Position numbers and translations under genes: made by a program. From the NCBI GenBank assembly GCA_016783505.1, contig JADHWK010000001.1, positions 62,001 to 126,000 of the forward strand: 64,000 bases of DNA, given 5' to 3'. The notes below the pieces were generated by a model, which was given only the letters and a program-made list of their open reading frames with translations, did no database searches and was not told the origin of the DNA. The stretch comes from Candidatus Zhuqueibacterota bacterium (GTDB taxonomy: Bacteria > BS750m-G25). This document shows positions 42,883 through 64,000 of this stretch, piece after piece; positions within the stretch are counted from its first letter, which is position 1, and each line of letters starts with the position of its first letter.

Positions 42883-43204
42883 CTTTCCGCTAAAGTCTGA
42901 GTTGGGTCTAAATAATTTCTAGACCACATCGGCGCGGCTCCTATCTAACTAGCGTAGATACTTCCTTCTGTGGCTATCACAAAGGTGGTAGGGATAACCT
43001 TTATTCCAAAAAAGATTTTTAAGTTAATCCGTAGCTCAGTAGTAAATGATTATGATGTGTTTTGCTAATGCTGCAATCTATTTTTTATCATATAGTGTTT
43101 CTTTTAACACCCCATCAATCCGATCCACCAGCACGAACTCCAGTTTTTTCCGGATAGTATTCAAAACTCTTTTAAGTCCTTAAAATGAAATATCTTTTAA
43201 AATG
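42883..43204. other. Intergenic region behind the HepT gene, mostly non-coding
   Basis: Contains the diverged copy of the lon 3' end (43078-43181). Otherwise it is 170 bp of sequence without a gene. No terminator is evident. Confidence 0.6.
43078..43181 (-). repeat. Diverged second copy of the lon 3' end
   Basis: About 79 bp (43103-43181) align with the end of lon at 43945-44024, at roughly 75-80 per cent identity. It reads KRVLNTIRKKLEFVLVDRID then GVLKETLYDKK and a TAG, against KQVPDIIREKLEFVLVDRID then GVLKEAMVDKTE in Lon. It is the C-terminus of a different lon allele, not an exact duplication. It starts 23 bp behind the HepT stop codon. Confidence 0.85.
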
Positions 43205-43549
43205 TTATTCTCTCTCTATCTCGTTAATAATAGCCTTGATTCTAAGTTTAAGATCTGGTATCTTGTTCTTTACAACATCCCAAACTGATTCATAAATAAT
43301 CCCAAAATATTTATGTATAAGAATATCTCTTAATCCCGCCATTTTTTCCCACTCTATTCGGGGATACTTTTTCCTGAAATCATTAGATAAATTTTTGGTG
43401 GCTTCACCAATCACCTCAAGAGATCTCACAAAGCTCCTTTTAAGAGTTCCATTATTGATAAATTCCTTAAAAGTAAGTTTCTCAGAATTCTGCAGAAGAT
43501 ATTCTGTTTCATCCAAAATATGTTTTAAAAAAGGCTTAAATTGTTTCAA
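43205..43549 (-). CDS. hepT: HepT-type HEPN ribonuclease toxin
   Basis: 114 residues of the HEPN (DUF86) fold. The catalytic Rx4H motif is intact in RDILIHKYFGI at about residues 73-83, and the SLEVIGEATKNLS segment is typical. HepT toxins cut RNA and are neutralised by the MntA partner, which AMPylates a Tyr near the active site (here the Tyr in HKYF). It overlaps mntA by 14 nt. The pair sits between the 3' end of lon and a second, diverged copy of that end. Confidence 0.9.
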   Translation of the reverse strand: MKQFKPFLKHILDETEYLLQNSEKLTFKEFINNGTLKRSFVRSLEVIGEATKNLSNDFRKKYPRIEWEKMAGLRDILIHKYFGIIYESVWDVVKNKIPDLKLRIKAIINEIERE

Positions 43550-43868
43550 GATATTCTATCTCTCTTATAATATGTGGCTTTATATAAGGACTTAGACTAC
43601 TCTCAGTTATAAGTTCCACCTTTCTGCCGAATAAATCCTCAAGATGAAAAACTAACTCCATGAAGTTATCAAAATAACCTGTGAAATTAACATCAAATGC
43701 AGTCCGGTCAAACTCAACGAGAAAATCAATATCACTTTGCTTTTTTTGTTCCCCTCTTACATAAGAACCAAATAGTCCTATCTTCTTAACTCTATATCTT
43801 TTTAGAACGTCACTATGCTCTTTGAGTATTTTGAAAATCTCTTTATCTGTAAGGTTTTTAGTTTTCAT
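43536..43868 (-). CDS. mntA: MntA-type nucleotidyltransferase antitoxin
   Basis: 110 residues. The minimal nucleotidyltransferase motif GLFGSYVRGEQKKQSDIDFLVEF carries the GSx10DxD signature needed to transfer AMP to HepT. A later Glu in KVELIT is the third acidic position. It lies 48 bp behind the lon stop codon, with no promoter identified, so it may be read from lon. Confidence 0.92.
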   Translation of the reverse strand: MKTKNLTDKEIFKILKEHSDVLKRYRVKKIGLFGSYVRGEQKKQSDIDFLVEFDRTAFDVNFTGYFDNFMELVFHLEDLFGRKVELITESSLSPYIKPHIIREIEYLETI

Positions 43869-43916
43869 CCTACCTTACCAATACTTAAACATTACAATTA
43901 AACTGATTCCCACAGA

Positions 43917-46265
43917 TTATTCAGTTTTGTCAACCATGGCTTCCTTTAGCACCCCATCAATCCGGTCCACCAGCACGAATTCCAACTTTTCCCGGATGAT
44001 GTCCGGGACTTGTTTTAAGTCCTTTTCGTTCTGCTTGGGGAGCACCACCTTTTTGATACCCGCCCTCCGGGCGGCGATGACCTTTTCCTTAATTCCCCCC
44101 ACCGGAAGCACCTGGCCCTGGAGGTTGATCTCACCGGTCATGGCCACATCGGGTTTAATAGACCGGTCAGAGAAAAGGGAGGCCAGCGAGGCCACCATGG
44201 CAACCCCGGCCGAGGGACCGTCCTTAGGGGTGGCTCCGGCGGGAACATGGAGGTGAATATCACTCTTCTGATAGAAATTCTCGGCAATGCCCAGTTCCTT
44301 AGCGTGAGCTCGTACATAGCTTAAGGCAATCCCGGCCGACTCCTTCATCACATCTCCCAGTTGACCGGTAAGTTCTAAGGATTTCCCCCCCTTCATCCGG
44401 GTGGATTCCACAAAGATCACCTCTCCCCCCACCGGGGTCCAGGCCAGGCCGGTGGCCACCCCCACCTCGGCTCGGCGGAGGGCCAGCTCGGGAATGAATT
44501 CCTCCGGACCCAGAAAATCTTCCAGGCGGTCCGGGGTAACCCTAACCATTTCCCGTTTGCCGGTGGCAAAATCCTTAGCCACCTTCCTGCAGATAGCGGC
44601 GATCTTCTTCTCTAAGGTGCGCACCCCGGCCTCCCGGGTGTAGCCGGTGATGATCTTTTCCAGGGCCCTTTTGGTAAACCTGATGCTCTTTGGGGTCAGT
44701 CCGTTCTCCTCAATCTGCCGGGGGACCAGATACCGCCTGGCGATCTCCAGCTTCTCTATGGTAATGTAGCCGGGAAGTTTAATGATTTCTAATCGGTCCA
44801 AAAGCGCCGGGGGAATGGGGGTCAGCACGTTAGCGGTGGTAATAAATAAAACCTTTGAAAGATCGAAGGGAACGTCCAGATAGTGATCGGAAAAAGAATG
44901 GTTCTGCTCCGGGTCCAACACCTCCAGCAGGGCTGCCGCCGGATCGCCCCGAAAGTCCTGTCCGATCTTATCCACCTCATCCATCATAAACACCGGGTTG
45001 TTGGACTCAGCCGCCCGTATCTTCTGAATGATGCGGCCGGGAAGGGAACCGATATAAGTCCGCCGGTGACCCCGTATCTCAGCCTCGTCCCTCACCCCCC
45101 CCAGGGAGATGCGGACGAACTTTCTCCCCAGGGCCCGGGCAATGGACATCCCCAGGGAGGTCTTTCCCACCCCGGGCGGACCCACGAAACACAAAATCGG
45201 CCCCTTACTGGACTCTTTAAGCTTTCTCACCGCCAAAAATTCCAGCATGCGCTCCTTCACATCCTCCAGACCGTAATGGTCGGTATCCAGGATCTTCTGC
45301 GCCTGGTAAATGTCCATCCGGTCCTCCGTCCCCTTGTTCCATGGCAGGGTGACCAGCCAATCGAGGTAAGTGCGGGAAACGGTATATTCAGCAGCCGCCG
45401 GGGGCATCTTGGAAAGCCGGTCCAGCTCCTTTAAGGCCACCTTCTGGACTTCCTCGGGCATATCAGCCGCTTCGATCTTCTCCTTAAGCTCCCTGACCTC
45501 GGCCGTCTGCTCGTCCTCCTCACCAAGCTCCTTTTTGATCGCCTTAAGCTGCTCCCGAAGCAGAAATTCCCGCTGGTCCTTATCAATCTTGCTCTTCACC
45601 TCGCTCTGGATCTTAGACCCCAGCTCCAGAATCCTCAACTCCCGGTTCAGGAAGACCAACACCTTTTTCAGCCGTTCCTCCACATCAGCGGTGGCCAGGA
45701 TATCCTGCTTCTGGATCAGGTCTATATTAAGATTGGAGGTGATCAGGTCGGCCAGGCGGTCGGGTTCCTTGATATTGTAGACGGCGATCTTGAGCTCATC
45801 GGTCAGGTAAGGGGAAAAGTCAATGATTTTGAGGAAGACATCGTTGACCTCTTTCATGAGGGCTTCAACCCGTATGCTCATCTTGATCCGTTCCCCCATG
45901 CGGGCAACCAGTCCCTTAAGATAGGGTTCTTCCTGGATAATCTGTCTTAGGACGATGCGGGCGTTCCCCTGTACCAACAGCCGGAGACTTCCATCGGGAA
46001 CCCGGAACATCTTCAAGATGGCGGCTACTGTGCCCACCGGATAGATCTGCTTTTTGTCCCGATCTTTAGTGGTAAAAATCCCCACCAACTTATTCCCAGA
46101 CAGGGCATCGTTAACCAGTTTAATGGCGTTATCGTCGCTAATGACCAAAGGGGCGATGACGTGGGGAAAAATCACCATGTCATTCACCGGAAGAATGGGC
46201 AGCTTTTCAGGGATGGGAATATCACCCTTCAGGTCTATTTCTAATGATTTATCGGTTTCTTTCAT
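43917..46265 (-). CDS. lon: Lon ATP-dependent protease
   Basis: 782 residues. N-terminal LonA substrate domain (LPILPVNDMVIFPHVI), AAA+ module with Walker A GPPGVGKTSLG and Walker B VFMMDEVDK, and a C-terminal Ser-Lys protease with PKDGPSAGVAM and the Lys in KEKVIAARRAG. Degrades misfolded and regulatory proteins, including many antitoxins. A GAGGAAAAC ribosome site precedes the ATG. It follows hsp20 by 35 bp, a stress-response pairing. Its last ~30 codons are duplicated in diverged form beyond the HepT/MntA pair. Confidence 0.98.
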   Translation of the reverse strand: MKETDKSLEIDLKGDIPIPEKLPILPVNDMVIFPHVIAPLVISDDNAIKLVNDALSGNKLVGIFTTKDRDKKQIYPVGTVAAILKMFRVPDGSLRLLVQGNARIVLRQIIQEEPYLKGLVARMGERIKMSIRVEALMKEVNDVFLKIIDFSPYLTDELKIAVYNIKEPDRLADLITSNLNIDLIQKQDILATADVEERLKKVLVFLNRELRILELGSKIQSEVKSKIDKDQREFLLREQLKAIKKELGEEDEQTAEVRELKEKIEAADMPEEVQKVALKELDRLSKMPPAAAEYTVSRTYLDWLVTLPWNKGTEDRMDIYQAQKILDTDHYGLEDVKERMLEFLAVRKLKESSKGPILCFVGPPGVGKTSLGMSIARALGRKFVRISLGGVRDEAEIRGHRRTYIGSLPGRIIQKIRAAESNNPVFMMDEVDKIGQDFRGDPAAALLEVLDPEQNHSFSDHYLDVPFDLSKVLFITTANVLTPIPPALLDRLEIIKLPGYITIEKLEIARRYLVPRQIEENGLTPKSIRFTKRALEKIITGYTREAGVRTLEKKIAAICRKVAKDFATGKREMVRVTPDRLEDFLGPEEFIPELALRRAEVGVATGLAWTPVGGEVIFVESTRMKGGKSLELTGQLGDVMKESAGIALSYVRAHAKELGIAENFYQKSDIHLHVPAGATPKDGPSAGVAMVASLASLFSDRSIKPDVAMTGEINLQGQVLPVGGIKEKVIAARRAGIKKVVLPKQNEKDLKQVPDIIREKLEFVLVDRIDGVLKEAMVDKTE

Positions 46266-46300
46266 GTTTTCCTCAACTGAGTGTCACATTACTTAGATAA

Positions 46301-46747
46301 TTATTCAATCGGTATATCCGTAGATTCTCCGGGCATGGGTTTTAGTTTCTTCAGACGAATCTCCAGGAATCCGGCCTGGTATTTGGCCTGAATCTTATCC
46401 TCCTCGATCTGGCCGTCGATCTTAATCCTACGTTCAAACGGACCAAACTCGATCTCCATCTTATGGTAATGCCGCTTCCCAAATCCGGTGAACTCCTCCC
46501 GAATGCCCCGGATGGTTAACACCCCGTCTTCGAAGGTCATGTGGAGATTCCGCTCTTGGATTCCGGCGATGTCCATGATGATCACGAATTCATCTTCGGT
46601 CTCGAATACATCAGTGGAGGGCCGCCAGCCCCGATCCCGGCTCCAGAGCGGGGGCCTCTTCAGGTTAAAGAAATTGGAGAAGAGAAAATCCATCTCCTCC
46701 TTCATGGACTGAAAATCCTTCAGCCACCGCCTATCAAAGTCTGTCAT
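46301..46747 (-). CDS. Hsp20 small heat-shock protein
   Basis: 148 residues from MTDFDRRWLKDF at 46747, with GGGGAGA upstream; a longer frame to 46840 is AT-rich and unlikely. The alpha-crystallin domain includes PSTDVFETEDEFVIIMDIAG, the GVLTIRG strand and a C-terminal I-x-I-like tail (DIPIE). ATP-independent holdase for unfolding proteins. It probably shares a transcript with lon. Confidence 0.9.
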   Translation of the reverse strand: MTDFDRRWLKDFQSMKEEMDFLFSNFFNLKRPPLWSRDRGWRPSTDVFETEDEFVIIMDIAGIQERNLHMTFEDGVLTIRGIREEFTGFGKRHYHKMEIEFGPFERRIKIDGQIEEDKIQAKYQAGFLEIRLKKLKPMPGESTDIPIE

Positions 46748-46805
46748 TTTCAGTCTCCCCATCCTCTTAACTATAATGATAATCCCAATATTACGTGTGT
46801 TTAGG

Positions 46806-46905
46806 TGCGAAGTGTGAAGTTCGAAGTGTAAAAAGTGCATAGAAGTTATTTGGGCGAAGTACTAAAAGATAATTTCGCATTATAGCTTGCTTCACACTTA
46901 CCATA
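46806..46905. repeat. Short inverted-repeat remnant upstream of hsp20
   Basis: GCGAAGTGTGAAG and CTTCACACTTACC lie about 75 bp apart as inverted copies, with GTTCGAAGTGT repeats inside. It looks like a small non-coding element in the hsp20-kdsA gap. Weak evidence only. Confidence 0.3.
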
Positions 46906-46921
46906 AAGCGACCCGATTTCT

Positions 46922-47773
46922 TTATTTCAAATTTAAATTTGTTTTGTTTTGTTGGAACGGAACTCGGTTATAGATTGTCTGCACCTGGGTCAGGAGACTT
47001 TCCAGTTGGTTTAGGTGCAGCATGCTGGCGGCGTCGCTTTTCGCCTTATCAGGGCTGGGATGGGTCTCGATAAAAAGGGCGCTCACGGCTCCGGTGGCCA
47101 CCGCCGATCGGGCCAGGGGGAAGATAAACCTGGGGTCGCCCCCCGAACCCCCCTGCCCCCCGCCGGGTTTTTGCACCGAGTGGGTGACGTCAAACACCAC
47201 CGGATACCCCATTTCCGCCATTATCACCAGCCCCCGCATATCCACTACCAGGTCATGGTAGCCGAACACGGTCCCCCTTTCAGTCACCATGATCCGATCA
47301 TTCCCCGCCGACCGAGCCTTCTCTAGGATGAATTCCACATCGTCGGGGGCCAGAAACTGACCCTTTTTGATATTCATGGGTTTTCCCGTTCGGGCCACCG
47401 CCTGCACCAGGTCCGTCTGTCGGCACAGGAAGGCCGGGATCTGGATCACATCCAACACGGATGAAGCCGGCCCTACCTCTTCTACACCATGAACGTCCGA
47501 AAGGACGGGTACCCCCACCCCTTCCCGCACCCGGGCCAAAATTTTCAGCCCCTCCTCTAACCCCGGCCCCTGATAGGAATCAACCGAGGTCCGATTGGCC
47601 TTGCGGTATGATGCCTTGAAGATAAAAGGCATCCCCAGGCGACCGGCGATACGCTTGATCTCTCGAGCCACCTGAAGGGTCAACCCCTCGCCCTCAATAA
47701 CACAGGGTCCGGCAATTAATACCAAGGGATTTTCCCCCCCAATTTTTATCTCTCCAACTTCTACAGTTCTCAT
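46922..47773 (-). CDS. kdsA: 3-deoxy-D-manno-octulosonate 8-phosphate synthase
   Basis: Joins arabinose 5-phosphate and phosphoenolpyruvate to make Kdo 8-phosphate for LPS. 283 residues; LIAGPCVIEG, the FKASYRKANRTS substrate segment, LSDVHG, IPAFLCRQTDL and FDVTHSVQKPGG are all present. The Cys in FLCRQTDL is part of that conserved segment. It shows that the organism makes a Kdo-containing outer membrane. The second Kdo gene, kdsB, is 3 kb upstream across pyrG and the toxin-antitoxin cluster. Confidence 0.96.
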   Translation of the reverse strand: MRTVEVGEIKIGGENPLVLIAGPCVIEGEGLTLQVAREIKRIAGRLGMPFIFKASYRKANRTSVDSYQGPGLEEGLKILARVREGVGVPVLSDVHGVEEVGPASSVLDVIQIPAFLCRQTDLVQAVARTGKPMNIKKGQFLAPDDVEFILEKARSAGNDRIMVTERGTVFGYHDLVVDMRGLVIMAEMGYPVVFDVTHSVQKPGGGQGGSGGDPRFIFPLARSAVATGAVSALFIETHPSPDKAKSDAASMLHLNQLESLLTQVQTIYNRVPFQQNKTNLNLK

Positions 47774-47789
47774 TTCTAATTAATCTAGA

Positions 47790-48184
47790 TTAGTTTTTCT
47801 CTTCCTTTCCAATTTGACCCAGAAATTTCAACGCTTCTTGCGTAAAATCCTCTGCATCCACAATTAAACCCTCAACAGTTTCTTTTGCAAATTTTGAAGA
47901 AACGACATAATCACTATCCCTACGAAGTCCGTAGGATCTGCTAAGAATTTTGGCGTATTTTTTTCCCATTATTCCGGTCTTAACAAGATGTTTAACAAAT
48001 AGATTAATTACACCGTTATGGGATTCACCCTTAAATTTAGCTTCAATAATAGGGCATTGGCTATATGAAATATGGAATAATAGCTTCTGTTCACTGCCGC
48101 TGATAGAATATTATTATCCAATAGAACTTTAACAGCCCTCAGGTCCTCCTTAGATTTTTCAATTTCCAACTCAATTTCGTTCAT
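47790..48184 (-). pseudogene. HEPN-domain protein, frameshifted
   Basis: From ATG at 48184 the frame reads NEIELEIEKSKEDLRAVKVLL then AAVNRSYYSIFHIANALLL, the classic HEPN N-terminus, and runs to a stop at 48008-48010. Shifting frame by one base near 48035 restores EAKFKGESHNGVINLFVKHLVKTG, GKKYAKILSRSYGLRRDSDY and on to the stop at 47790, the rest of a HEPN protein. One small indel explains the break; a sequencing error is possible. It overlaps the MNT gene upstream by 14 nt, like the HepT/MntA pair near lon. Confidence 0.75.
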
Positions 48185-48524
48185 AAATTATTTTTCCCTC
48201 TTCCAGCACATTTAGGATGAACGAAAATTTATGGGCCACCATATCTTCATGTTCTATTCGGGAACGAATTACGGAGGCAAAAAGAACTTCGTTCTTGAGG
48301 CCCACGTCAACCTCAATATCCAGTAGCCGCTCTGGTAACCCATCGTCATCGGATATTACGAAAAGGTCCACGTCGCTATCCGGCCAGCGGTATTCTCCGC
48401 GGGCGGCGGAACCGTAGAGAATGATCTTCTGGATGCTGTCTTTTCCCTTCTTCTTTATTTCCCTGACCAAATCTTTCAGGGCATTATTTACTTTTTTGTC
48501 CAGAATTGGTACTGACAATTTCAC
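48171..48524 (-). CDS. MNT-type nucleotidyltransferase, partner of a broken HEPN gene
   Basis: 117 residues. Motif YGSAARGEYRWPDSDVDLFVI gives the GSx10DxD core of minimal nucleotidyltransferases. The C-terminal part (VGLKNEVLFASVIRSRIEHE) suits the MntA/HEPN-associated class. It overlaps the HEPN pseudogene start by 14 nt. As its toxin partner is frameshifted, this antitoxin may be an orphan. Confidence 0.8.
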   Translation of the reverse strand: MKLSVPILDKKVNNALKDLVREIKKKGKDSIQKIILYGSAARGEYRWPDSDVDLFVISDDDGLPERLLDIEVDVGLKNEVLFASVIRSRIEHEDMVAHKFSFILNVLEEGKIIYERN

Positions 48525-48532
48525 TTTATCCT

Positions 48533-48793
48533 CTATGTCCTTAATTTTGTACCCTTAGTTGAATTTCTTTCCGCCCGCAGTTTTTTTGCATGGGCAAGCT
48601 CCCATTCGTCCCTCTGTTTATTTGCTTCTTCTATGCTCCGGTATTTGAAAATCCCTTTGGGATAACTTATGGGACAAAGTTTATTGGCAAAATCCCAGAG
48701 TTCAGCCACTCTATCAAAATATGCCTCGTCAGGGTGGAAATTCCATAAAGCCCTTTCCGCTTCTTCAAAAGTTTTGTACTTAAAGACAGGCAT
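48533..48793 (-). CDS. Small conserved protein paired with a nucleotidyltransferase
   Basis: 86 residues, MPVFKYKTFEEAERALWNFH, then YPKGIFKYRSIEEANKQRDE and a basic tail. This short protein with repeated F+YRS/TFEEA motifs is typical of genes placed next to DUF6036-type nucleotidyltransferases and may be the other half of such a two-gene module. The nucleotidyltransferase gene lies 13 bp upstream. No catalytic motif is seen. Confidence 0.6.
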   Translation of the reverse strand: MPVFKYKTFEEAERALWNFHPDEAYFDRVAELWDFANKLCPISYPKGIFKYRSIEEANKQRDEWELAHAKKLRAERNSTKGTKLRT

Positions 48794-48806
48794 ATTTATT
48801 ACTCCT

Positions 48807-49304
48807 TTAATAAGATTCTTTTAGGTCGGGATGATTCAATTTTCTTTCTTTGATGAGTTCTCTCAAAAACATAGCGTCAATTTTATCTTGATAACGTACA
48901 GTATCTTTCTTAAGACGGTATAATGTATCAGGTGTTCCAATCCTTATTTTTATATCTTGATAGTCAATAATTTCATATTCCAAATCTTCATAAGCGGCAA
49001 CATCACCTAAACGTGTCATAATGTCAATATAAAAACCATTAGGGGTCCCATAACGAATAACGGGATAATTATCTAACTCATTCAAGGTGATTTCTTCAAT
49101 AGACGGGTCTTCAAAAATCAAATGCAGAGCTTTTCTAAGGTGTTCAATATTGTTAGGATCCCTTTTAACAAGAATGTCCATGTCACGGGTTAACCTTTCC
49201 ATCCCATGAAAAATCACAGCAACCCCTCCGATTAGGATATAATCCACCTTTTGCTCATCAAGACCTTTTAAAATCCGTATAAAATATTTGAATTGATCTG
49301 CCAT
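48807..49304 (-). CDS. Nucleotidyltransferase of the AbiEii/DUF6036 type
   Basis: 165 residues. DYILIGGVAVIFHGMERLTRDMDILV has the GG...(x)8-9R.T.D(I/M)D motif of AbiEii-like enzymes. It begins 3 nt after the pyrG stop and is probably co-transcribed with the small gene behind it. Members act as toxins or partners in abortive-infection-type systems; its activity here is unknown. Confidence 0.75.
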   Translation of the reverse strand: MADQFKYFIRILKGLDEQKVDYILIGGVAVIFHGMERLTRDMDILVKRDPNNIEHLRKALHLIFEDPSIEEITLNELDNYPVIRYGTPNGFYIDIMTRLGDVAAYEDLEYEIIDYQDIKIRIGTPDTLYRLKKDTVRYQDKIDAMFLRELIKERKLNHPDLKESY

Positions 49305-49307
49305 ACT

Positions 49308-50966
<1,659 letters not shown>

Positions 50967-51695
50967 CTACTTTTCTAACATCCCCCGAATTATTTCCAGA
51001 TCTGCCGGGGTATCCACCCCATGAGAATCAAAGGCTGTTATGACCACTCGGATGGGATAGCCATTCTCCAGAATTCTCAACTGCTCCAAATTTTCCATCC
51101 TTTCCAATGGTGAGGGACCCCACTGCTTGAATTGGAATAAAAATACTTTCCGGAACACATAGAGGCCGATGTGTTTAAAATACAGATCTTCGGTCCCCCC
51201 ATTTCGACTAAAGGGAATGACGCTCCGGGAAAAATAGAGGGCGTTATCCCGGCTATCCATGACGACCTTGACCACATTGGGGTCGGTCAACTGGACCGGA
51301 TCATGGATGGGCCTTGCCAAAGTGGTAACTTCAACATCCGTATTATCAAGAAGGGGCTTAATCGCTTCATTGATCATATCGGGCTCGATCAGGGGTTCAT
51401 CCCCCTGAATATTTGCGATGATCTCGCCTTCAAGCTCCCTAGCTGCATAGGCCACCCGGTCGCTGCCCGTTGGGATGTCCCTAGGCGTAATAACAGCCTT
51501 CCCCCCGAAACCCCGAACCGCCTCCAGGATCCGGGGATCGTCGGCAGCCACCCAAACGTCATCCAACATCTTTGCCCGGCAAGCCTGCTCGTAGACCCAT
51601 TGGATTACCGGTTTCCCCGAAAGGTCTGCCAACACCTTCCCCGGGAAACGGGCCGACCCATAGCGAGCCGGAATAACCCCGATTACCTTAGCCAA
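50967..51695 (-). CDS. kdsB: 3-deoxy-manno-octulosonate cytidylyltransferase
   Basis: Activates Kdo as CMP-Kdo for LPS core assembly. 242 residues: VIPARYGSARFPGKVLA, DTPADLEIIRG near the C-terminus, IQGDEPLIEPDMI and YFSRSVIPFSR match the family. It lies 21 bp upstream of pyrG, whose CTP product is its substrate, a sensible pairing. Confidence 0.96.
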   Translation of the reverse strand: MAKVIGVIPARYGSARFPGKVLADLSGKPVIQWVYEQACRAKMLDDVWVAADDPRILEAVRGFGGKAVITPRDIPTGSDRVAYAARELEGEIIANIQGDEPLIEPDMINEAIKPLLDNTDVEVTTLARPIHDPVQLTDPNVVKVVMDSRDNALYFSRSVIPFSRNGGTEDLYFKHIGLYVFRKVFLFQFKQWGPSPLERMENLEQLRILENGYPIRVVITAFDSHGVDTPADLEIIRGMLEK

Positions 51696-51773
51696 AGGAA
51701 CCCCTTTCCTTAATCAATTACTAAACTTTGACAAAATTATCAAAATTTATAAATCACAAACAAATCGGTCAGG

Positions 51774-52454: not shown

Positions 52455-52471
52455 TAGTTACGTTAATAAAC

Positions 52472-54063: not shown

Positions 54064-54290
54064 TGTTTCGGCCTATGGCTCGTAGAGCCATAGGCTCTGA
54101 GAGATTTCGACCCACCTGCCCCACACTGTGCGTGGCGGGCAGGTATTCGAATTTCGGATTTTCTTATCCCAAGATCGTTCCGACTGACATCGTACCTCGT
54201 CGGCTTACCTGTCCGGGGCTAGACGCTCAGACGAGGAGCGTAGCCTCCCATGGATCGTATGACCGCATGGCCCAGGGAGGCGAAGCTTCA
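54064..54290. repeat. Palindrome-rich repeat region between tsaB and tsaE
   Basis: Holds several hairpins: GCCTATGGCTCGTAGAGCCATAGGC, ACCTGCCCC..GGCGGGCAGGT and GCCTCCC..GGGAGGC. It overlaps the last ~29 codons of tsaE, whose encoded tail (LRLPGPCGHTIHGRLRSSSE) does not look like family sequence. It is probably an inserted non-coding repeat. Confidence 0.5.
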
Positions 54291-54717: not shown

Positions 54718-54759
54718 CTATCCATTAATCCATTATTTCATCCTTCCTCTGTCCAAGTC

Positions 54760-56328: not shown

Positions 56329-56536
56329 AACATCCCCTATTTAATCATCTTAGAATGACTAAAAATTGACTTCAATAAAATGAATAGGTTACGTAAGACG
56401 TTTATCAGTCGGGCGCCTGACCGAACCGAATGTCTCAGAAACCCCTCCATAAATATCGTGGTTGTTCAGTTGCCCCGAACCTTCGGGGCTAAGCTCATCT
56501 TTTTAGACACCCATGCCCAGGAATCAATTGTTCTTG

Positions 56537-57352
56537 CTAATGGAGGGAAACTTCCATCCTTTTTCTTTTATGGAAGAGGCAGATTTTATCATATCCTGCC
56601 TCCTCTACCGCCGCCACCAGCCGATCAAAGGCCCAGCCCACTTCACCGGGGCGGTGGGCGTCCGACCCCAGGGTGATGGGAATGCCAAGCCGGCGGGCCA
56701 GTGACAAAAACCGGGGTCCCGGATATATCTCCCCCACCGGGGCCCGGAGGCCGGAGCTGTTCACCTCCAGACAGAGGTCATATTCGGCCATGACCTCCAG
56801 CGTCCGCCAGACCCAGGGATCATAGGTTTTATCGGGGAAATAGGCATATTTCTTAATCAGGTCCAGGTGGGCCATAACATCGAATAGACCTGTCCGGGCT
56901 GCCTCCCGCACCAGGGCAAAATATTCCCGGAAGACCTCATCCATATTCCGACGATGGTATTCCCCCACCCCCTTCCGTGAGACGAAACCCCAGTCGCCGA
57001 TGAAATGCACCGACCCCAGCACATAGTCGAAGGGAAAACCGCTCAATACTCCGGCCAGGACGTCTTCCAGGCCGGGCACAAAGTCGGCCTCGATTCCGAT
57101 ACGTACGGTGGGATTCCCGTCCTTTTTCTGGGTCTTCCTCAACTCTGTGAAATAAACCTTCTCCAAATCCCCTATTTCCATCCGATGGGCGGCGTCATAG
57201 CCGGTGGGGACGGGCATATGATCGGCAAAACCAATTTCATCCAGCCCCTTTTGCTTAGCCATGACTAGATAATCGCCCGGTTCCCCCTGGGCGTGTTTGC
57301 AGAGTTTGGTGTGCAGATGATAATCAACCAGAATGGTTAAGCCCCTCCTCAA
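56537..57352 (-). CDS. PHP-domain histidinol phosphatase-like protein
   Basis: PHP phosphoesterases hydrolyse phosphate esters such as histidinol phosphate with a three-metal site. Motifs are VDYHLHTKLCKHAQG, GIEADFVPG, LGSVHFIG, MAHLDLIK and GSDAHRPGEVGW, all intact. It overlaps the DUF2520 gene upstream by 29 nt as read from TTG at 57352. The true start may be closer to VDYHLH, because the only good ribosome site (AGGAGGGG) lies at 57343-57350. No other histidine-synthesis gene is near, so its substrate could be something else. Confidence 0.82.
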   Translation of the reverse strand: MRRGLTILVDYHLHTKLCKHAQGEPGDYLVMAKQKGLDEIGFADHMPVPTGYDAAHRMEIGDLEKVYFTELRKTQKKDGNPTVRIGIEADFVPGLEDVLAGVLSGFPFDYVLGSVHFIGDWGFVSRKGVGEYHRRNMDEVFREYFALVREAARTGLFDVMAHLDLIKKYAYFPDKTYDPWVWRTLEVMAEYDLCLEVNSSGLRAPVGEIYPGPRFLSLARRLGIPITLGSDAHRPGEVGWAFDRLVAAVEEAGYDKICLFHKRKRMEVSLH

Positions 57353-58217
57353 ATTCTGCCAGCAATTTCCTTAATCGGTCCGCCCCAGCATGGTCTAACC
57401 TCCCCCCATCCTGGGCCAGCTTCAGGGTCAGCCGCCCCAGCACGGTATAAAGAGGGGTCAGATCGGGAACCCTCTCCCGAAGAGTCACCAGATGAGAGCG
57501 TACCGTCTTCAGGTCCCCCCTGGCTATCGGGCCGGTGAGGGCCCGCTCTCCCCCCAGCCAGGAGGCGTTCCTTAAAGACTGTCGGGCTAGGGGCTCGATG
57601 ATCCGATAGCATGTCTCCCGACTAAAACCCAGGGGGCCGTAGAGCTTTTCCACCTGGGCCAGCAGGGTGACCAGATAGTTTGAAGCCAAAATGGCGCCCA
57701 GGTGGTAGAGGGGTTTCTGCTCGGGCCAGACCTTAAGGACCCATCCCCCGAGCCCCTCCACCAATCGCCGGGCAAGGGGGAAGGCCTCCTCATCCCCCTC
57801 AAAGGCAAAGGCCACCCCGGCAAGCTCCGGGGCCAAACCTTTGCAAAAGGTCTGCATGGGGTGAAAGGAAAAGGTTTTAGCCCCGTGTACCTTCACCGGA
57901 TCCAGCACCGAGGCCGGCATCGCCGCTGAAGTGTGAATTACCACCGTCGCTTCAGTTAATAGACCGGTTTTTAAAAGTGTTTCCGCCACCAAGGCGATCT
58001 GATCGTCGGGGGTGGTGATGAAAAAAATCTCCGTATCTTTAGGGATATCCTTTACATCCCGGGATACCACTCCGGCCCCACATCCCGACCCGCATCTTTG
58101 GGCTGACCGCATGCTACGGCTGACCACAGCCGTAATCGTATACCCCCCTTGATGAAGGGCCGCCGAAAGGACCTGCGCCACCCCCCCGGCGCCGATGAAG
58201 GCGATGCGTTCTTTCAT
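57324..58217 (-). CDS. DUF2520 Rossmann-fold protein
   Basis: 297 residues. The N-terminal NAD(P)-binding motif FIGAGGVAQVLSAALHQGG, the middle VVIHTSAAMPASVL and SFHPMQTFCKG, and an all-helical C-terminal DUF2520 domain (HLGAILASNYLVTLL, ALTGPIARGDL) are clear. It resembles ketopantoate-reductase/ProC-like dehydrogenases, but the substrate is unknown. It overlaps the PHP gene behind it. Confidence 0.85.
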   Translation of the reverse strand: MKERIAFIGAGGVAQVLSAALHQGGYTITAVVSRSMRSAQRCGSGCGAGVVSRDVKDIPKDTEIFFITTPDDQIALVAETLLKTGLLTEATVVIHTSAAMPASVLDPVKVHGAKTFSFHPMQTFCKGLAPELAGVAFAFEGDEEAFPLARRLVEGLGGWVLKVWPEQKPLYHLGAILASNYLVTLLAQVEKLYGPLGFSRETCYRIIEPLARQSLRNASWLGGERALTGPIARGDLKTVRSHLVTLRERVPDLTPLYTVLGRLTLKLAQDGGRLDHAGADRLRKLLAEFEEGLNHSG

Positions 58218-58259
58218 TTAGATCACAATGATGCTAAGAAGCTTGTAAATTGCCAAAAT

Positions 58260-58852
58260 TTAGTCTGATTTCCTAGAAGTGCTATGTGATGAAGTAAAAA
58301 TCGCAAGAAGTTTCTTACATTCTTCGAAGACAGATTTGACATGTGCCCAGGTAAGCATATCAGCTTCGACAACAACCTCCAGCCAATATTCAGTTTCACT
58401 TGCCTCTTTCATGCAAATGCCAATCTTGTTTCTTAAATCAGCTTTCGATATGGGCCGATTTGCTTTTTACCCCGTTAGATAACTTTTTCCAACCCTGATA
58501 ACTATAAAATATTTCTATCTTTCATGTTTCGGATAATATTATAAAACATATTTATCTAACGGGGCGAGTAATATGCGCCAATGGATGTTCCTGCTTTAAC
58601 CATTTGATACTTAACTACCTTGCCAGCCTCTGTGTTCGGCAATTCGCCAGTGAGTTTAATAATCTGAACTGCAAACCGTAAAGTCCGCTTTTCAAGCCCC
58701 TTACCTCTTTCTTTTTGTTCATCTTTTAAATTTAGGCAATCTTTGCCCCGATGCTTCGGGGGAAATTTAGGTAATTCAACATTGTTTTGACCGATTGTGA
58801 GGTACTGGTAATCAACCGAAGAGCACCCCGCCCAGATAACCCACCACCCCAC
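58260..58852 (-). pseudogene. Four-helix-bundle (S23-type) protein gene split by a 95-bp element
   Basis: Upstream of the insert the frame reads KGLEKRTLRFAVQIIKLTGE then AGKVVKYQMVKAGTSIGAYYS, the characteristic first half of four-helix-bundle (23S rRNA intervening-sequence type) proteins. It is cut by the element at 58470-58564. Behind the element the sequence continues in another frame with KANRPISKADLRNKIGICMK, EASETEYWLEVVVEADM and a C-terminus ending at 58260. Joined without the insert they form one normal protein of about 120 residues. The start codon is unclear; the first ~30 codons overlap the memo gene. Confidence 0.8.
58470..58564. mobile_element. 95-bp inverted-repeat element (MITE-like)
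   Basis: Bounded by a perfect 13-bp inverted repeat, CCCCGTTAGATAA and TTATCTAACGGGG. The interior is AT-rich with no gene. It splits the four-helix-bundle gene exactly between two conserved segments. No other copy was noticed in the window. Confidence 0.75.
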
Positions 58853-59639
58853 TCTTATCCCCGGTCACATCGCCCGAATTTTTGTACTGAACCGCCCTGG
58901 CCTTCCGAGCTCCCAGCTTTTGACACCCTATCATGGCCGCCATCATAGGCCCTCCACCACATGCCTCGCAATTCCCTCCTTCCAGGTCCTGGGAAAGACC
59001 CGGAACATCGTAATCCTCCAGGTGTTGAATGACCACCCTATCCAGGTCCACCGCCGTTTGATAGGGGTGAAAGTGCGAAAGGTCGGTGCTGGCCACCACC
59101 AGGGCGGGCTTACCCGACAAAACCCTGGCTAATGCCTCCCCCAGCCGCCGGCAGTTTTCCAGCCCCTGATCACCCATCACCACCGGCACCATCCGGAAAT
59201 CCCCCAGCACCATTTGAAGGAAGGGAAGTTGCACCTCCAGGGAATGTTCATCCCGGTGTCCTTCCGAAGACAGGATGATCTTTTCGTCGGCGTCCGCCAG
59301 CCCCTGGGCCAGCTCCTGGTCCACAGGGACATCCCCCAAGGGAGTCCGGTATCCGGCCCCCTCAAAGACAGAAATCAGGGGAAAATACTCCCTATGACTG
59401 GGGGCAATGACCACTACCGACTCGTATCGCTCACCGCTCACCTGTTTGTAAGCCCAGGCGGCCACCTGACCGGAATACACATACCCGGCATGGGGACTGA
59501 TCAGACCGTAGATCTTTCCCTCCAACTCAGTCTTCTCCGCCCGGGACAGAAAATCGGTGATCTGGCGCTTGAGATAGTCCGGGTCATCGCTATAGAAACT
59601 GCCCGTCACCACCGGCGGTCTTATAAAATCTGTTTTCAT
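58812..59639 (-). CDS. Memo-family protein (AmmeMemoRadiSam system B)
   Basis: 275 residues related to class III extradiol dioxygenases. SPHAGYVYSGQVAAWAY, VVIAPSHREYFP, EHSLEVQLPFLQ and STDLSHFHPY supply the His and other metal-type positions of the family, and the late CEACGGGPMMAAMI is typical. In many bacteria it occurs with an AMMECR1 and a radical-SAM partner, neither of which is in the window. Function unproven. Confidence 0.88.
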   Translation of the reverse strand: MKTDFIRPPVVTGSFYSDDPDYLKRQITDFLSRAEKTELEGKIYGLISPHAGYVYSGQVAAWAYKQVSGERYESVVVIAPSHREYFPLISVFEGAGYRTPLGDVPVDQELAQGLADADEKIILSSEGHRDEHSLEVQLPFLQMVLGDFRMVPVVMGDQGLENCRRLGEALARVLSGKPALVVASTDLSHFHPYQTAVDLDRVVIQHLEDYDVPGLSQDLEGGNCEACGGGPMMAAMIGCQKLGARKARAVQYKNSGDVTGDKSGVVGYLGGVLFG

Positions 59640-59671
59640 TGGAGATCCTTATTATAATTATATTATCATTA

Positions 59672-60070
59672 TTAGGTTTTCAAACATCTCAGTTCAGAGT
59701 GCTCTTCAATTAAATCGAAATCCTTATGATGATGAAAAAGAACCAAACCGTTTTCAATGGCAATGGAGGCAATAATGCAATCCACAGTTGACCTTGGGGT
59801 TACCCCCCTGTTTCGACAGGTTCGATAAATTTCGGCGGCCCGAATATAGGTCTCCACCCCCCTGGAAATAAAAATGGGAAAGCTCAACAGAGTTTCTCTT
59901 ACCCCCCAGTAGTCACTATCCCGTTTTATGCCCTGCAATACCTCTGTCAGGATCAGTGGGACCAAAGCGATCCCTTCTTGTTCTACGATAAGGTCATGAA
60001 GCTTCTTGCGGTGGGCCGAGGGGGTCCCCCTGAAAAACTCAATCCAGACCGATGTGTCCACTAAAATCAA
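59672..60070 (-). CDS. vapC: VapC-type PIN-domain ribonuclease toxin
   Basis: 132 residues: ILVDTSVWIEFFRG (first Asp), TEVLQGI (Glu), STVDCIIASIAIENG (third acidic, Asp) and FHHHKDFDLI (fourth Asp region). VapC toxins cut tRNA or rRNA. It overlaps vapB by 4 nt in antitoxin-toxin order. The pair lies between ychF and the memo gene. Confidence 0.92.
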   Translation of the reverse strand: MILVDTSVWIEFFRGTPSAHRKKLHDLIVEQEGIALVPLILTEVLQGIKRDSDYWGVRETLLSFPIFISRGVETYIRAAEIYRTCRNRGVTPRSTVDCIIASIAIENGLVLFHHHKDFDLIEEHSELRCLKT

Positions 60071-60267
60071 ATCCGGCTCCTCCTCATTTCACGGAGATCC
60101 CCCTCCCATTCCACCTTTCCTTCGAAGTTTAAAATTTCCTTACGCCTCATCTGGTTCACGAATTCCTTCAGCGCCCGGTTAATAAGCTCTTTTTTCGTTC
60201 TCAGTTTAGAGAGCTTTAATCCCTCTTCTACCAGATTCTCATCAATGTAAACATTGGTCCGTTGCAT
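60067..60267 (-). CDS. vapB: VapB-type antitoxin
   Basis: 66 residues: RTNVYIDENLVEEGLKLSKL then RTKKELINRALKEFVNQMRR, the ribbon-helix-helix DNA-binding segment of VapB/Arc antitoxins, and an acidic toxin-binding tail. It starts about 27 nt behind a promoter with an overlapping palindrome, consistent with autorepression. Confidence 0.9.
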   Translation of the reverse strand: MQRTNVYIDENLVEEGLKLSKLRTKKELINRALKEFVNQMRRKEILNFEGKVEWEGDLREMRRSRI

Positions 60268-60287
60268 CTTAAATCTCCCGTCTTTTT

Positions 60288-60313
60288 ACACAAAATATAA
60301 TATTTTTTTGTGT
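60288..60313 (-). promoter_or_regulatory. Palindromic operator of vapBC
   Basis: ACACAAAA (60288-60295) and TTTTGTGT (60306-60313) are inverted copies around a 10-bp centre. It covers most of the promoter spacer, as expected for VapB binding. Confidence 0.6.
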
Positions 60314-60322
60314 ATGAGTCAA
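60294..60322 (-). promoter_or_regulatory. Sigma-70 type promoter of vapBC
   Basis: On the minus strand TTGACT (60317-60322) and TATATT (60294-60299) are 17 bases apart. The -10 box ends about 27 bp before the vapB ATG. Confidence 0.7.
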
Positions 60323-60332
60323 GAACTATTTT

Positions 60333-61421
60333 TCAAACGTGGAATCGAAATTGAATCACATCCCCGTCCTGGACGGGATAGTCTTTCCCTTCCAGCCGGA
60401 CCAATCCCTTCTCTCTGCATTTGGCCAGGGAGCCCTGCGCCATTAGATCGTGGTAATGAACGACCTCGGCGCGGATGAACCCCCGTTCCATATCGGAATG
60501 GACGGCCCCGGCAGCATGGACGGCGGGGGTCCCCTGCTTGATGGTCCAGGCGTGCACCTCGTCATGAATGACGGTAAAAAAGGAAATAAGTTCCAGCAGT
60601 CCATACGAAGCCCGGATCAGTTTGTCCAAAACCGCTTCTTTCAGACCCATTTCCTCCCGGAAAATCCCTGCATCTTGCTCTTCTAACTCCGAGATTTCCA
60701 TCTCCAGCTCGGAGCACACCCCGACCATTCCCATTCCCCGCCGATCGGCCAGATCCCCATACTCCGAAAGGACGCTTTCCTCCTTTCCGGCCAGATCTTC
60801 GCCCAGATTGAGAACGATCAAAAGGGGCTTAGCGGTGAGCAGTTGAAAGCCGTGCAGGACCCTCTCATCCTTCGGGGCCAGCTCTATTTCCCGCAGGGGA
60901 ATTTCCTCCTCGATCTTCCCTTTACACAGCTCAAGCACCCTGAGTTCGTGGGCCGCCTGATCGTCTTTGACCTTCTTTAACTGCCGGGACAGTTTATCGG
61001 CCCTGTTTTCCACAATGGCTAAATCAGAGAGCAGAAATTCTGCCTCGATGATCCCGATGTCCCTGCGGGGGTCCACTGACCCCTCAGGATGGGGCACCTT
61101 TTCGCCCCCAAAGGCCCGTACCACCGCCAGCAGGGCGTCGTTGGCCTTGACCCGGTTCAGAAATTCACCGCTGAACCCCGCCTTCTGACTGGCCCCCTTG
61201 GCGAGACCGATAACATCGTCGTATTCCACTATAACGGGCACCTGGCGCTGGGGCTTAAACATCTCTACCAGCCGGTCCAGGCGCTCATCGGGGACCTTGA
61301 CCACCGCCACATGCCCCCGCTCTTTGCCCCCCCCGTAGCCCACCGCCGCATGGGCTCCTGTCAGGGCATTGAACAGGGTCGTCTTGCCCGATTGGGGCAG
61401 CCCTACTATTCCTATTTTCAC
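60333..61421 (-). CDS. ychF: YchF/Obg-family ATPase-GTPase
   Basis: 362 residues. IGIVGLPQSGKTTLFNALTG (Walker A, hydrophobic Q type of YchF), the NLGED segment in the place of a G4 motif, and a C-terminal TGS-type domain (FFTVIHDEVHAWTIKQGT, HSDMERGFIRAEVV, GLVRLEGKDYPVQDGDVIQFRF). The family binds ribosomes and ATP better than GTP. Length and motifs are ordinary. Confidence 0.93.
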   Translation of the reverse strand: MKIGIVGLPQSGKTTLFNALTGAHAAVGYGGGKERGHVAVVKVPDERLDRLVEMFKPQRQVPVIVEYDDVIGLAKGASQKAGFSGEFLNRVKANDALLAVVRAFGGEKVPHPEGSVDPRRDIGIIEAEFLLSDLAIVENRADKLSRQLKKVKDDQAAHELRVLELCKGKIEEEIPLREIELAPKDERVLHGFQLLTAKPLLIVLNLGEDLAGKEESVLSEYGDLADRRGMGMVGVCSELEMEISELEEQDAGIFREEMGLKEAVLDKLIRASYGLLELISFFTVIHDEVHAWTIKQGTPAVHAAGAVHSDMERGFIRAEVVHYHDLMAQGSLAKCREKGLVRLEGKDYPVQDGDVIQFRFHV

Positions 61422-61504
61422 GGTAACAACCCACCAAATATTATATAGTTAGAATAAATGGCTGACGCCTTAACTCCCTAATAAAGTTAAATCTTTTAGG
61501 GTTT

Positions 61505-61993
61505 TCAGCGTTTATACCCGATCTTCCGCAGAAATTCTTTGCGAACCCGGACATTCTCATCCTTTTCAACCCCTACTGGGGTTTCCCCATCAACCACACC
61601 CAGGATGCCCCGCCCCAGTTCTGTCTCCACCACGATCACCTCCACCGGATTGGCGGTGGCGCAGAAGATCGAACAGACCTCAGGACAGTTCTTGACCGCA
61701 TTCAGCACGTTGAGGGGAAAGGCCTCCTTCAGCAGGATGACGAAGGTGTGCCCAGCCCCGATGGCGAGGGCGTTCTCGGAAGCGACCTTTTTCAATTCTT
61801 CATCATTCCCCTCAACCCGCACCAACCTCTCCTGGGAGGCCTCGTTGAAGGCCAGTCCGAATTTGATCCCGGGGACCGATCCTATCAACACCTCATACAG
61901 GTCTTCGACCGTCTTGATAAAATGGGTCTGACCGATGATGATATTGGTCCCTTCGGGAATATTCATCTTTACCGATTTGAGCTCCATGTCCAT
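61505..61993 (-). CDS. Adenosine-specific kinase
   Basis: 162 residues of the small family known from archaea and thermophilic bacteria (PF04008). GTNIIIGQTHFIKTVEDLYE, GIKFGLAFNEAS, GAGHTFVILL and CSIFCATANPVEVIV are the typical segments. It phosphorylates adenosine to AMP in characterised members. The gene stands alone between ychF and a broken transposase gene. Confidence 0.85.
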   Translation of the reverse strand: MDMELKSVKMNIPEGTNIIIGQTHFIKTVEDLYEVLIGSVPGIKFGLAFNEASQERLVRVEGNDEELKKVASENALAIGAGHTFVILLKEAFPLNVLNAVKNCPEVCSIFCATANPVEVIVVETELGRGILGVVDGETPVGVEKDENVRVRKEFLRKIGYKR

Positions 61994-62155
61994 CTCCTTT
62001 TAGTCACTTATCCAGGGTTACTTTTAATATAAAGAAAATCTCCCCCATTCTCAAGTAAAAAAAGAAAAACCTTCCTGTACAAGGAAGGCCTTGAGTTCAA
62101 AATTCCGCTTTTGACTTGTACTGATCCAAATGTCATCCTGAAGCAGATTTTAAAA

Positions 62156-62692
62156 TTACGATTTAAACTTTTTTATGTTTTTTGGATTCTCGGTATCCAG
62201 TTCCCTTTTAAGGGAATTGTTTATAACAGATTCCCTAATCTGATTAAATTCCTTCTCGTTACGGATAATATGCTCGTAATAATTACGTTGCCATTTGAAA
62301 GTACATAATCCCATTTTACGAATGTTTTTTGTTACGATGGATTTGAATTGTCCGATGATAGAACCAAGGGAATTGGATTGTAATCCAATTGTAGGGGCGA
62401 CCCGGCGGGTCGCCCCTACGACATCAATAATCATAATAATCCCATGTAAATGATTAGGCATCACATTAAATTCATCCAATTCTACATTGTCCCGAATTTT
62501 GGCCGTCTTTAACCATTCGGCTTTAACCACCTGACCGAATTCATTCAACCGCATTTCGCCATACACAACATCACCAAAAATACATTCCCGATTATGGGTG
62601 CATATCGTGATGAAATATACTCCTGCCTGGGAATAATCATAATCTTATAATCGAATGGAACGACGATGATGTTTCTCTGGATTGTATATCAT
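62156..62692 (-). pseudogene. RAYT (REP-associated tyrosine transposase), nonsense-mutated
   Basis: From ATG at 62692 the frame reads MIYNPEKHHRRSIRL, then TAA (62645-62647), then DYDYSQAGVYFITICTHNRE and on. Further motifs are the HUH pair in FNVMPNHLHGIIMI and the catalytic Tyr segment WQRNYYEHIIRNEKE, ending at 62156. The stop at codon 16 replaces a Lys (KGYDYSQAG in relatives). RAYT enzymes cut and move REP hairpins. A REP-type hairpin lies inside this gene itself, translated in frame as VVGATRRVAPTIG. Confidence 0.85.
62392..62420. repeat. REP-type hairpin within the RAYT gene
   Basis: GTAGGGGCGACCC, a short loop, and GGGTCGCCCCTAC form a near-perfect hairpin. It is translated in frame in the transposase, an arrangement seen in other RAYT genes. 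Confidence 0.8.
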
Positions 62693-62712
62693 TTTTTACG
62701 TTGATGATATTG

Positions 62713-62772
62713 TTAATGATCCCCCTCATAAAACGGCTCGATATGCACCAGCATGTCTTCCACCTGGGAAAG
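62713..62772 (-). repeat. Diverged second copy of the CDF transporter 3' end
   Basis: 60 bp align with the end of the CDF gene at 63589-63648 with about 11-12 differences. They read LSQVEDMLVHIEPFYEGDH, then stop, against LSKIEDVLVHVEPFFEGDH in the gene. Nearly all changes are conservative, so it derives from a homologous gene, not from an exact duplication. It lies 5 bp behind the toxin stop codon. Confidence 0.85.
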
Positions 62773-62777
62773 CCTTT

Positions 62778-63272
62778 CTATTTCGAAAGCTCACCGGCTA
62801 ATTTGAGAATATCTTCTTTCAATTTGTCACTCAACCGAAATCCCAATCTCAAAAGTTTCTCATTAACTTCAGACACAGATTCAATGTGTCCCTGCATTTT
62901 TGATTTCAAGATAATTCCGGCCGGGCCGGTAAACCTTAAGCCCCGTAGCTCGACAATACGGCGGGCCAATCGCTCATCAAGAATGATGAGTGACCCTGGC
63001 TTTTCAATGGATAAAGCTAATACTTCAGCTTCACCTAGACCTAAGTCGGTTATCAACTTAAGATATTTAGGAACCTCTACTTTTTGTGCTTGAATCCAAG
63101 GATAGTCTTTAATATCTGGAACATCCTCCCCCTGCAATTTACCTTGCTCTAACTCGTAAACGACTCCTTGGGGAACAATGATAGTACCGTAGAGTTTTTC
63201 GAGCAATTCTAAAAGCCCTAAGCGATGCAAATAGAAAAGGGGCGAAGTATTTACAATTACATGTTCAGGCAT
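62778..63272 (-). CDS. DUF3368-type PIN-like toxin
   Basis: 164 residues: VIVNTSPLFYLHRLGLLELL (the Asp of the first PIN position is Asn here), GLGEAEVLALSIE, and LIILDERLARRIVELRG carry the acidic positions of DUF3368 PIN-like proteins. The C-terminal part (SEVNEKLLRLGFRLSDKLKEDIL) is the usual helical tail. It overlaps the antitoxin by 8 nt. The pair lies between the CDF 3' end and a diverged second copy of it. Confidence 0.85.
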   Translation of the reverse strand: MPEHVIVNTSPLFYLHRLGLLELLEKLYGTIIVPQGVVYELEQGKLQGEDVPDIKDYPWIQAQKVEVPKYLKLITDLGLGEAEVLALSIEKPGSLIILDERLARRIVELRGLRFTGPAGIILKSKMQGHIESVSEVNEKLLRLGFRLSDKLKEDILKLAGELSK

Positions 63273-63516
63273 TATGCACGTTTTTCTCTAATTCTTCGAC
63301 TTCCATATCGAATATAGCGACATTATACCGATCGAGGGCTTGGAGAAAACTTACCCGTGAAATACCAGCTAATTCTGCCGCTCGCCATGAAGACAACTTG
63401 CCCAGTTCATATAACTTTGCAGCAGCTGCCATGCGGATCTCTCGACTAAATTCTTCTGGGGTCTCATTGAGGGAGATCAGAACCTCATCGGGATACTCAA
63501 TTTGAATCGTCTTCAT
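63265..63516 (-). CDS. UPF0175 antitoxin
   Basis: 83 residues: IQIEYPDEVLISLNETPEEF then REIRMAAAAKLYELGKLSSWRA and AAELAGISRVSFLQALDRYN, the UPF0175 DNA-binding antitoxin pattern with a late helix-turn-helix. It precedes and overlaps the DUF3368 toxin and starts 72 bp behind the CDF stop codon. Confidence 0.88.
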   Translation of the reverse strand: MKTIQIEYPDEVLISLNETPEEFSREIRMAAAAKLYELGKLSSWRAAELAGISRVSFLQALDRYNVAIFDMEVEELEKNVHNA

Positions 63517-63588
63517 CTTAGCTCCTTGAAATTTTGAGAATTATCTTTATTAGTATACAAAGATAATAAATAAGAATCAACTATTTTT

Positions 63589-64000
63589 TTAATGATCCCC
63601 TTCAAAAAAAGGCTCCACATGCACCAGCACGTCTTCTATCTTAGAAAGACGATACTTCATGTGATTTTTCACTTCGGTTGCCATAAAATGGCTGTCCTGC
63701 ACGGAAACGTCCTTTCCCGCCTCCACATGAATGTCCACCAGATACCCCAGCCCGCTCTTCCTCACCCTCAGCTTCTCCACCCCCATCACCCCTTCCACCT
63801 CGAGGGCCAGCCTGCGGATATCGTCCAATAGGGCTTGCTCTGGCTGTCTGTCCATCAGCTCCCGGGAACTGGAGAGACCGATCTTTATCCCCACATAGAT
63901 GATCATTGCTGAGATGAACCCGGCGGCGATGTGGTCCAGAGCCTGCCAGCCTGAGCCCCCCAGCATGGCCCCGCCGATGCCCAGGAAGGCGGCCGCTGAA
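63589..64000 (-). CDS. Cation diffusion facilitator transporter, N-terminus cut by window edge
   Basis: Only the C-terminal ~136 codons are present. Two hydrophobic helices (LDHIAAGFISAMIIYVGIKIG) come first. They are followed by the cytoplasmic domain (ELMDRQPEQALLDDIRRLAL, GYLVDIHVEAGKDVSVQDSH, IEDVLVHVEPF) with the His-x-x-x-Asp and His-x-Glu metal positions of CDF proteins. Exports zinc, iron or manganese. The frame stays open to base 64000. Its last 20 codons are duplicated in diverged form beyond the DUF3368/UPF0175 pair. Confidence 0.9.
   Translation of the reverse strand, partial: SAAAFLGIGGAMLGGSGWQALDHIAAGFISAMIIYVGIKIGLSSSRELMDRQPEQALLDDIRRLALEVEGVMGVEKLRVRKSGLGYLVDIHVEAGKDVSVQDSHFMATEVKNHMKYRLSKIEDVLVHVEPFFEGDH

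Follow-up and report, generated by a model that had tools for sequence, protein, structure and literature searches.

Orphan gene tails behind toxin–antitoxin and other small inserts in a Candidatus Zhuqueibacterota genome: probable traces of recombination with related lineages

It has long been asked how chromosomal toxin–antitoxin (TA) systems find their way into genomes in the absence of a mobile element. In a 64,000-nucleotide stretch of DNA from a Candidatus Zhuqueibacterota bacterium (hereafter the window), two TA modules each lie between the 3' end of a host gene and a second, orphan copy of that gene's tail (Table 1). Both cases are located within one 197-kb contig, and all genes of both are on the minus strand. 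A sequence-only reading of the window had pointed out that two unrelated TA families share this arrangement, and our measurements of the gaps on either side of the modules confirm it.

Table 1. Features of the two TA loci, numbered from the first nucleotide of the window
Feature	Position	Strand	Basis
lon protease gene, host of insert 1	43917..46265	minus	782-aa ORF; tblastn
Full-length lon tail (gene 3' end)	43925-44024	minus	direct-repeat comparison
MntA-like antitoxin, NTP_transf_2 nucleotidyltransferase	43536..43868	minus	PF01909, E=8e-16
HepT-like ribonuclease toxin	43205..43549	minus	PF01934, E=2e-25
Orphan lon tail	43083..43181	minus	repeat alignment and tblastn
Cation-efflux (ZT_dimer) gene, host of insert 2	63589..64000	minus	PF16916, E=1.6e-19
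UPF0175 antitoxin	63265..63516	minus	PF03683, E=6.3e-27
PIN-domain toxin (DUF3368)	62778..63272	minus	PF11848, E=1.5e-9
Orphan cation-efflux tail	62707..62772	minus	82% over 66 bp, without frameshift, ends at stop

At the first locus the host gene is lon, whose product reached a best identity of 60% in a tblastn comparison with the Lon proteins of 59 genomes. The MntA start (43868) follows the lon stop (43917) after 48 bp, and the orphan lon tail begins, at 43181, 23 bp behind the HepT stop (43205). Aligned without gaps, 43083-43155 matches 43925-43997 at 81%; with one 1-bp indel, the repeat extends to 43083-43181 and 43925-44024 (77% over 100 bp). The differences between the orphan and the full tail are mostly silent (12 of 21.7 silent sites, as against 9 of 74.3 replacement sites), and the orphan was independently retrieved by tblastn with a Lon protein query (residues 748-780, 70% identity, E=2.8e-6). 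Judging by the coordinates listed for matches in 59 and 98 other genomes, all of them related to this one only at the level of the domain, no HepT match adjoins lon in any of these genomes.

At the second locus the host encodes a cation-efflux protein of 300 aa, which continues past the window edge and is present at full length in its contig (C1). Here, the UPF0175 start (63516) lies 72 bp behind the host stop (63589), and the orphan tail begins at 62772, 5 bp behind the stop of the PIN/DUF3368 gene (62778). The direct repeat pairs 62707-62772 with 63583-63648 (82%, 66 bp); the two tails compare as LSQVEDMLVHIEPFYEGDH versus LSKIEDVLVHVEPFFEGDH. Immediately behind the orphan tail, at 62156-62680 on the minus strand, we observed a remnant resembling a REP-associated (RAYT/Y1-type) transposase, which bears an HUH-like motif, NHLHGI, as well as a GGGGCGACCCGCCGGGTCGCCCC palindrome in its interior, and is without a Pfam match.

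Is this arrangement peculiar to the window? We called genes by simple ORF rules in this one genome, a 2.51-Mb draft of 89 contigs that is 60% complete, and scanned 2.19 Mb of it. When the terminal 110 bp of each of 1828 genes were compared with the 4 kb downstream, 41 genes had a downstream copy at a score of at least 24, as opposed to one on the reverse-complement control. On this control, a single comparison attained 24 and none attained 35, while the two window cases scored 52.5 and 40; a chance match is ruled out for both. Part of the 41 genes are tandem paralogues or carry a many-copy C-terminal domain. The latter, a T9SS sorting-type domain (NYPNPFNP-like) present in about 45-50 copies and seen on contigs C5, C63, C81, C87 and C89, is the chief false positive of tail scans in this genome.

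Furthermore, an unbiased self-comparison, filtered for paralogy by copy number and protein-level extension, yielded 52 direct two-copy repeats flanking small inserts (23.7/Mb) versus only 4 inverted ones in the 2.19 Mb. In 1.34 Mb of control sequence, which consists of 109 mostly draft lon neighbourhoods of other genomes rather than whole genomes, there were 4 direct (3.0/Mb) and 3 inverted repeats. Two of these control direct repeats (L097 and L061) were inspected as possible gene tails and rejected, both being intergenic repeats. In our genome, the direct pairs coincide with gene 3' ends roughly threefold more often than random placement predicts (21 observed, 6.7 expected), while those on gene 5' ends are at chance level (7 observed, 6.0 expected). 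The insert list also takes in some repeats that are intergenic or situated in promoter regions, and these may have arisen differently from the tail cases. The arrangement is real, reaches beyond the window and recurs genome-wide.

The host genes include, in addition to lon and the cation-efflux gene, ffh, etfB, PEPCK, sdhB/frdB, tatD and the genes for uracil-DNA glycosylase, a cNMP-binding protein, an M2/M3 peptidase, a Memo-AMMECR1 protein and vATPase subunit C. TA cargo comprises, besides the MntA-HepT and UPF0175-PIN modules of the window, a VapBC (PIN) pair behind ffh, PIN genes behind the uracil-DNA glycosylase gene and behind a 1231-aa gene, DUF5615-PIN, a HepT on C16, ParE-type pairs behind etfB, and CopG-BrnT. 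At ffh (contig C36, 54.9-57.4 kb; L237), the repeat (98%, 116 bp) ends 48 bp before the stop, so that the present C-terminal tip of the gene differs from that of the orphan copy.

To measure enrichment we used TA loci from four genome family searches that were blind to the repeats. Seven of these 30 loci lie inside inserts, compared with 54 of 1845 other ORFs (odds ratio 10, p=3e-5); under random placement the mean was 0.7, and seven was never reached in 5000 trials. TA modules are enriched in the inserts, yet they are not their exclusive cargo. Defence cargo is represented by a Schlafen-AlbA protein and by a type IIG-like restriction enzyme between 171-bp repeats, and other inserts hold a mannosylglycerate synthase, a BadF-type ATPase, a radical-SAM protein, an aldo-keto reductase and unknowns. 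The enrichment of tail repeats around TA pairs that the sequence-only reading had anticipated is thus present in this genome, as the roughly tenfold excess of TA loci inside the inserts. Its proposal of a general TA mechanism stands in so far as the arrangement is general in this genome, 3'-biased and TA-enriched; it was drawn too narrowly, since the mannosylglycerate synthase, the BadF-type ATPase, the Schlafen-AlbA protein and the type IIG enzyme occur in the same structures and the arrangement is therefore not TA-specific. The cargo has a lower GC content than the flanks (39% versus 46.5%).

As read in this one genome, the boundary between cargo and orphan tail is abrupt and lacks homology, and at the opposite junction the homology tapers off. 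The junctions share no end motif: no 8-mer was common to more than two of 19 insert junctions. Domain search found no integrase inside either window insert, in agreement with the sequence-only reading; the shared nuclease or recombinase that it had suggested looking for finds no common terminal motif pointing to it. Genome-wide, there are eight integrase-domain matches, several of them fragments. C-terminal fragments of tyrosine integrases lie at C44:3065-3178, C59:23540-23665 and C62:1372-1569, the first of them adjoining a 134-bp repeat that flanks a deaminase/HATPase gene.

Integrases are known to use the 3' ends of protein genes, as phage 21 and e14 do in icd, where an element-borne tail with silent differences replaces the gene end. 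The tails described here resemble those replaced tails, and the eight matches could supply an enzyme, so that a tyrosine recombinase encoded elsewhere might insert tail-carrying cassettes in trans with the gene tails as attachment sites. We regard such site-specific recombination as unlikely: about 20 unrelated host genes of differing sequence would have to serve as sites, without a common core or end motif, the window inserts are without an integrase, and the extent of the match ranges from 45 to 357 bp.

The divergence between the tails is informative as to their history. Pooled over 21 host genes, gene end and orphan differ by 0.37 changes per silent site and 0.11 per replacement site (dN/dS 0.22), and in the nine TA/defence cases, an amino acid is altered in 32 of 75 changed codons. 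In simulations of the neutral decay of an initially identical orphan, 65–78% of changed codons were amino-acid-altering, and none of 200 runs was as low as the TA/defence set, even in a generous variant that assigned half of the change to a fully constrained gene branch. For non-TA cargo the silent bias is weaker, the observed value being reached in 16 of 200 generous simulations. In the diverged pairs (lon, ZT, Memo-AMMECR1, SdhB), homology stops at about the stop codon, while in closer pairs it extends into the 3' flank (C16 +49, vATPase C +106), as expected of orthologous gene ends from two related lineages. Several orphans contain frame-breaking indels, which fit decay after displacement. 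From these comparisons, the tails look like orthologous gene ends from two lineages that diverged largely as working ends. AT-rich cargo and mostly silent tail divergence indirectly suggest that insert and anchor are of foreign origin.

These data bear directly on a mechanism in which the cargo inserts on its own, about 100 bp of the host's own sequence are duplicated in the process, and the orphan copy then decays. Repeats of 50-300 bp, and restriction-modification cargo between 171-bp repeats, match reported insertions of that kind (PMC3874152), and a recent event of this sort might explain the Ffh repeat (98%, 116 bp). Against this stand the silent-biased divergence, the conserved C-termini of the orphans and, in the diverged pairs, a homology that ends at the stop codon, where a randomly duplicated stretch would not. 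Copies of one target, identical at first and decaying later, would thus not be expected to give the TA/defence set, although exceptions such as Ffh may occur, and we give little credence to long target duplication as the common origin. The sequence-only reading's view that insertion leaves a tail duplication is accordingly probably wrong, the silent-biased divergence indicating tails that evolved in different lineages; the alternative that it had mentioned, homology-driven acquisition from a related strain, accounts better for this divergence than does copying of the host tail.

We therefore favor, as the probable explanation, recombination with DNA of a related lineage that is anchored by homology at one end and joined illegitimately at the other, so that the tail of the resident gene is displaced. 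The donor DNA would carry a TA pair, or another small gene set, behind the same housekeeping gene. One junction would be anchored by homology in the shared gene, and the other would form by illegitimate joining within the last 50-300 bp of the resident gene. The donor's working tail would keep the gene whole, the cargo would come next, and what we infer to be the resident tail would remain as the orphan behind the cargo. A single crossover with a circle containing tail and cargo would produce the same scar, and either route is conceivable. RecA-type pairing is inefficient at 77-87% identity, and a longer and closer anchor further upstream must therefore be assumed. The bias to 3' ends would arise because gene-breaking events are lost, and the over-representation of TA modules may be due to addiction: because TA loss is lethal, additive products would persist. 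In keeping with this model, DprA is present; against it, searches of this 60% complete genome turned up neither ComEC nor Ku, which bear on the uptake and end-joining routes. The 59 and 98 other genomes, a sample that includes no close relative, contained neither a donor nor an empty site.

Under displacement, insertion 5' of the host stop would leave an orphan tail, while insertion 3' of the stop would leave none and would be undetectable by a repeat scan. The window also contains, on the minus strand, further nucleotidyltransferase/HEPN-like small genes (47790-48524 and 48807-49304), with CTP synthase-like and KdsA-like genes on either side and no flanking tail copies, and a VapBC pair (59672-60267) behind a YchF-like GTPase gene, likewise without a tail copy. 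The TA pairs at 47790-48524 and 59672-60267 may lack orphan tails because they were inserted behind the stop.

Some loci appear to have received successive inserts. Three copies of the etfB tail are present on C23, in the order tail, ParE pair, tail, ParE-like pair, tail. At their right ends, the two orphan etfB tails are identical without exception over about 35-40 bp, and the T1 and T2 tails are mosaic, which the simplest version of the displacement model does not predict. A TA island on C1 (34.2-45.7 kb of the contig; L117, L118) lies between sugar-transferase and DegT genes and contains many small TA-like pairs. In it, the sugar-transferase tail is present three times, with a MazE-like gene, DUF7718/DUF5647 and DUF2283 TA-like pairs in the intervals, and the DegT head is doubled around AbiEii. 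The DegT repeat is diverged on its outer side while its last 69 bp are perfectly identical up to a sharp break, as predicted for a crossover inside the repeat.

As the genome is a draft of limited completeness, contigs of different strains could have been glued together such that a gene end appears twice, and tails of two strains would indeed resemble orthologues. We nevertheless consider an assembly artefact very unlikely: the sequence has no runs of N apart from a 2-kb gap introduced in the analysis, tails of 77-87% identity have too few long words in common to mislead an assembler, the mostly draft data from the 109 other loci are nearly free of such repeats, and there are three-tail arrays with two TA pairs as well as two window cases inside one contig. 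Ordinary paralogy or chance, in the form of repeated C-terminal domains or dispersed repeats, accounts for many raw matches but can hardly explain the cases that remain after filtering. These are low in copy number and sharply bounded on the left, and the reverse-strand control was nearly empty.

More tentatively, one might envisage a general, integrase-free spread of TA and defence genes, in which units of gene tail and TA module land on the 3' ends of shared housekeeping genes, addiction makes the events additive, and TA arrays grow behind core genes, leaving datable orphan tails; we think this possible, but somewhat doubtful. Orphan tails are readable scars that mark the insertion point and identify the host gene serving as landing pad, and they carry a rough clock, silent changes dating from before displacement and frameshifts from after it. 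Since the repeat scan needs one genome only, it could measure this route in any genome, and a single lineage with so many scars would be a natural test bed.

In the open-access literature, we found no report of such insertion of TA pairs behind housekeeping genes, and no paper combining TA modules with homology-facilitated insertion. Several known systems share individual traits with the arrangement described here. Integrases acting at gene 3' ends differ from it in that the window inserts have no integrase and the junctions share no core site. Restriction-modification systems have been reported to duplicate about 100 bp of their target on insertion (PMC3874152; for long duplications, Nobusato et al. 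2000 and Furuta et al. 2010, as summarized in that review). Like the inserts studied here, they are addictive small gene sets flanked by long (about 100 bp) direct repeats without an integrase; there, however, the repeats are described as a duplication of the target, whereas here the copies differ mostly silently and resemble the gene ends of two lineages. Where the papers examined for this comparison bring TA modules and long target duplication together, the duplication is described for restriction-modification systems. Homology-facilitated illegitimate recombination, known mainly from transformation and conjugation experiments (PMC2884548, PMC3240628), likewise combines a homologous anchor at one end with illegitimate joining at the other and adds small foreign segments, as has been discussed for E. 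coli (PMC2884548); the literature searched contained no description of orphan tails left across a genome behind TA cargo. It has also been proposed for the type VI effector-immunity arrays of Vibrio (Kirchberger et al. 2017, PMC5361080), in which a toxin/immunity module is inserted and the displaced 3' end of the older gene is kept downstream; those events are limited to T6SS clusters and effector genes, whereas ours are found genome-wide at unrelated genes. In Rhs C-terminal displacement (Jackson et al. 2009, PMC2935791), incoming DNA recombines within a conserved part of a gene, whose former end is thereby shifted downstream and orphaned; repeated events give rise to arrays, and circular intermediates have been proposed. 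Orphan ends displaced behind an intact gene, and arrays by successive events, are present here as well, in the etfB array and the C1 island. However, the end displaced in Rhs systems is a toxin tip, within a single gene family and at high identity, while here some 20 unrelated genes that do not belong to the rhs family, most of them housekeeping genes (among them lon, ffh, etfB and PEPCK), act as hosts, and what is inserted is a gene in its own right, with a TA, defence or metabolic role.
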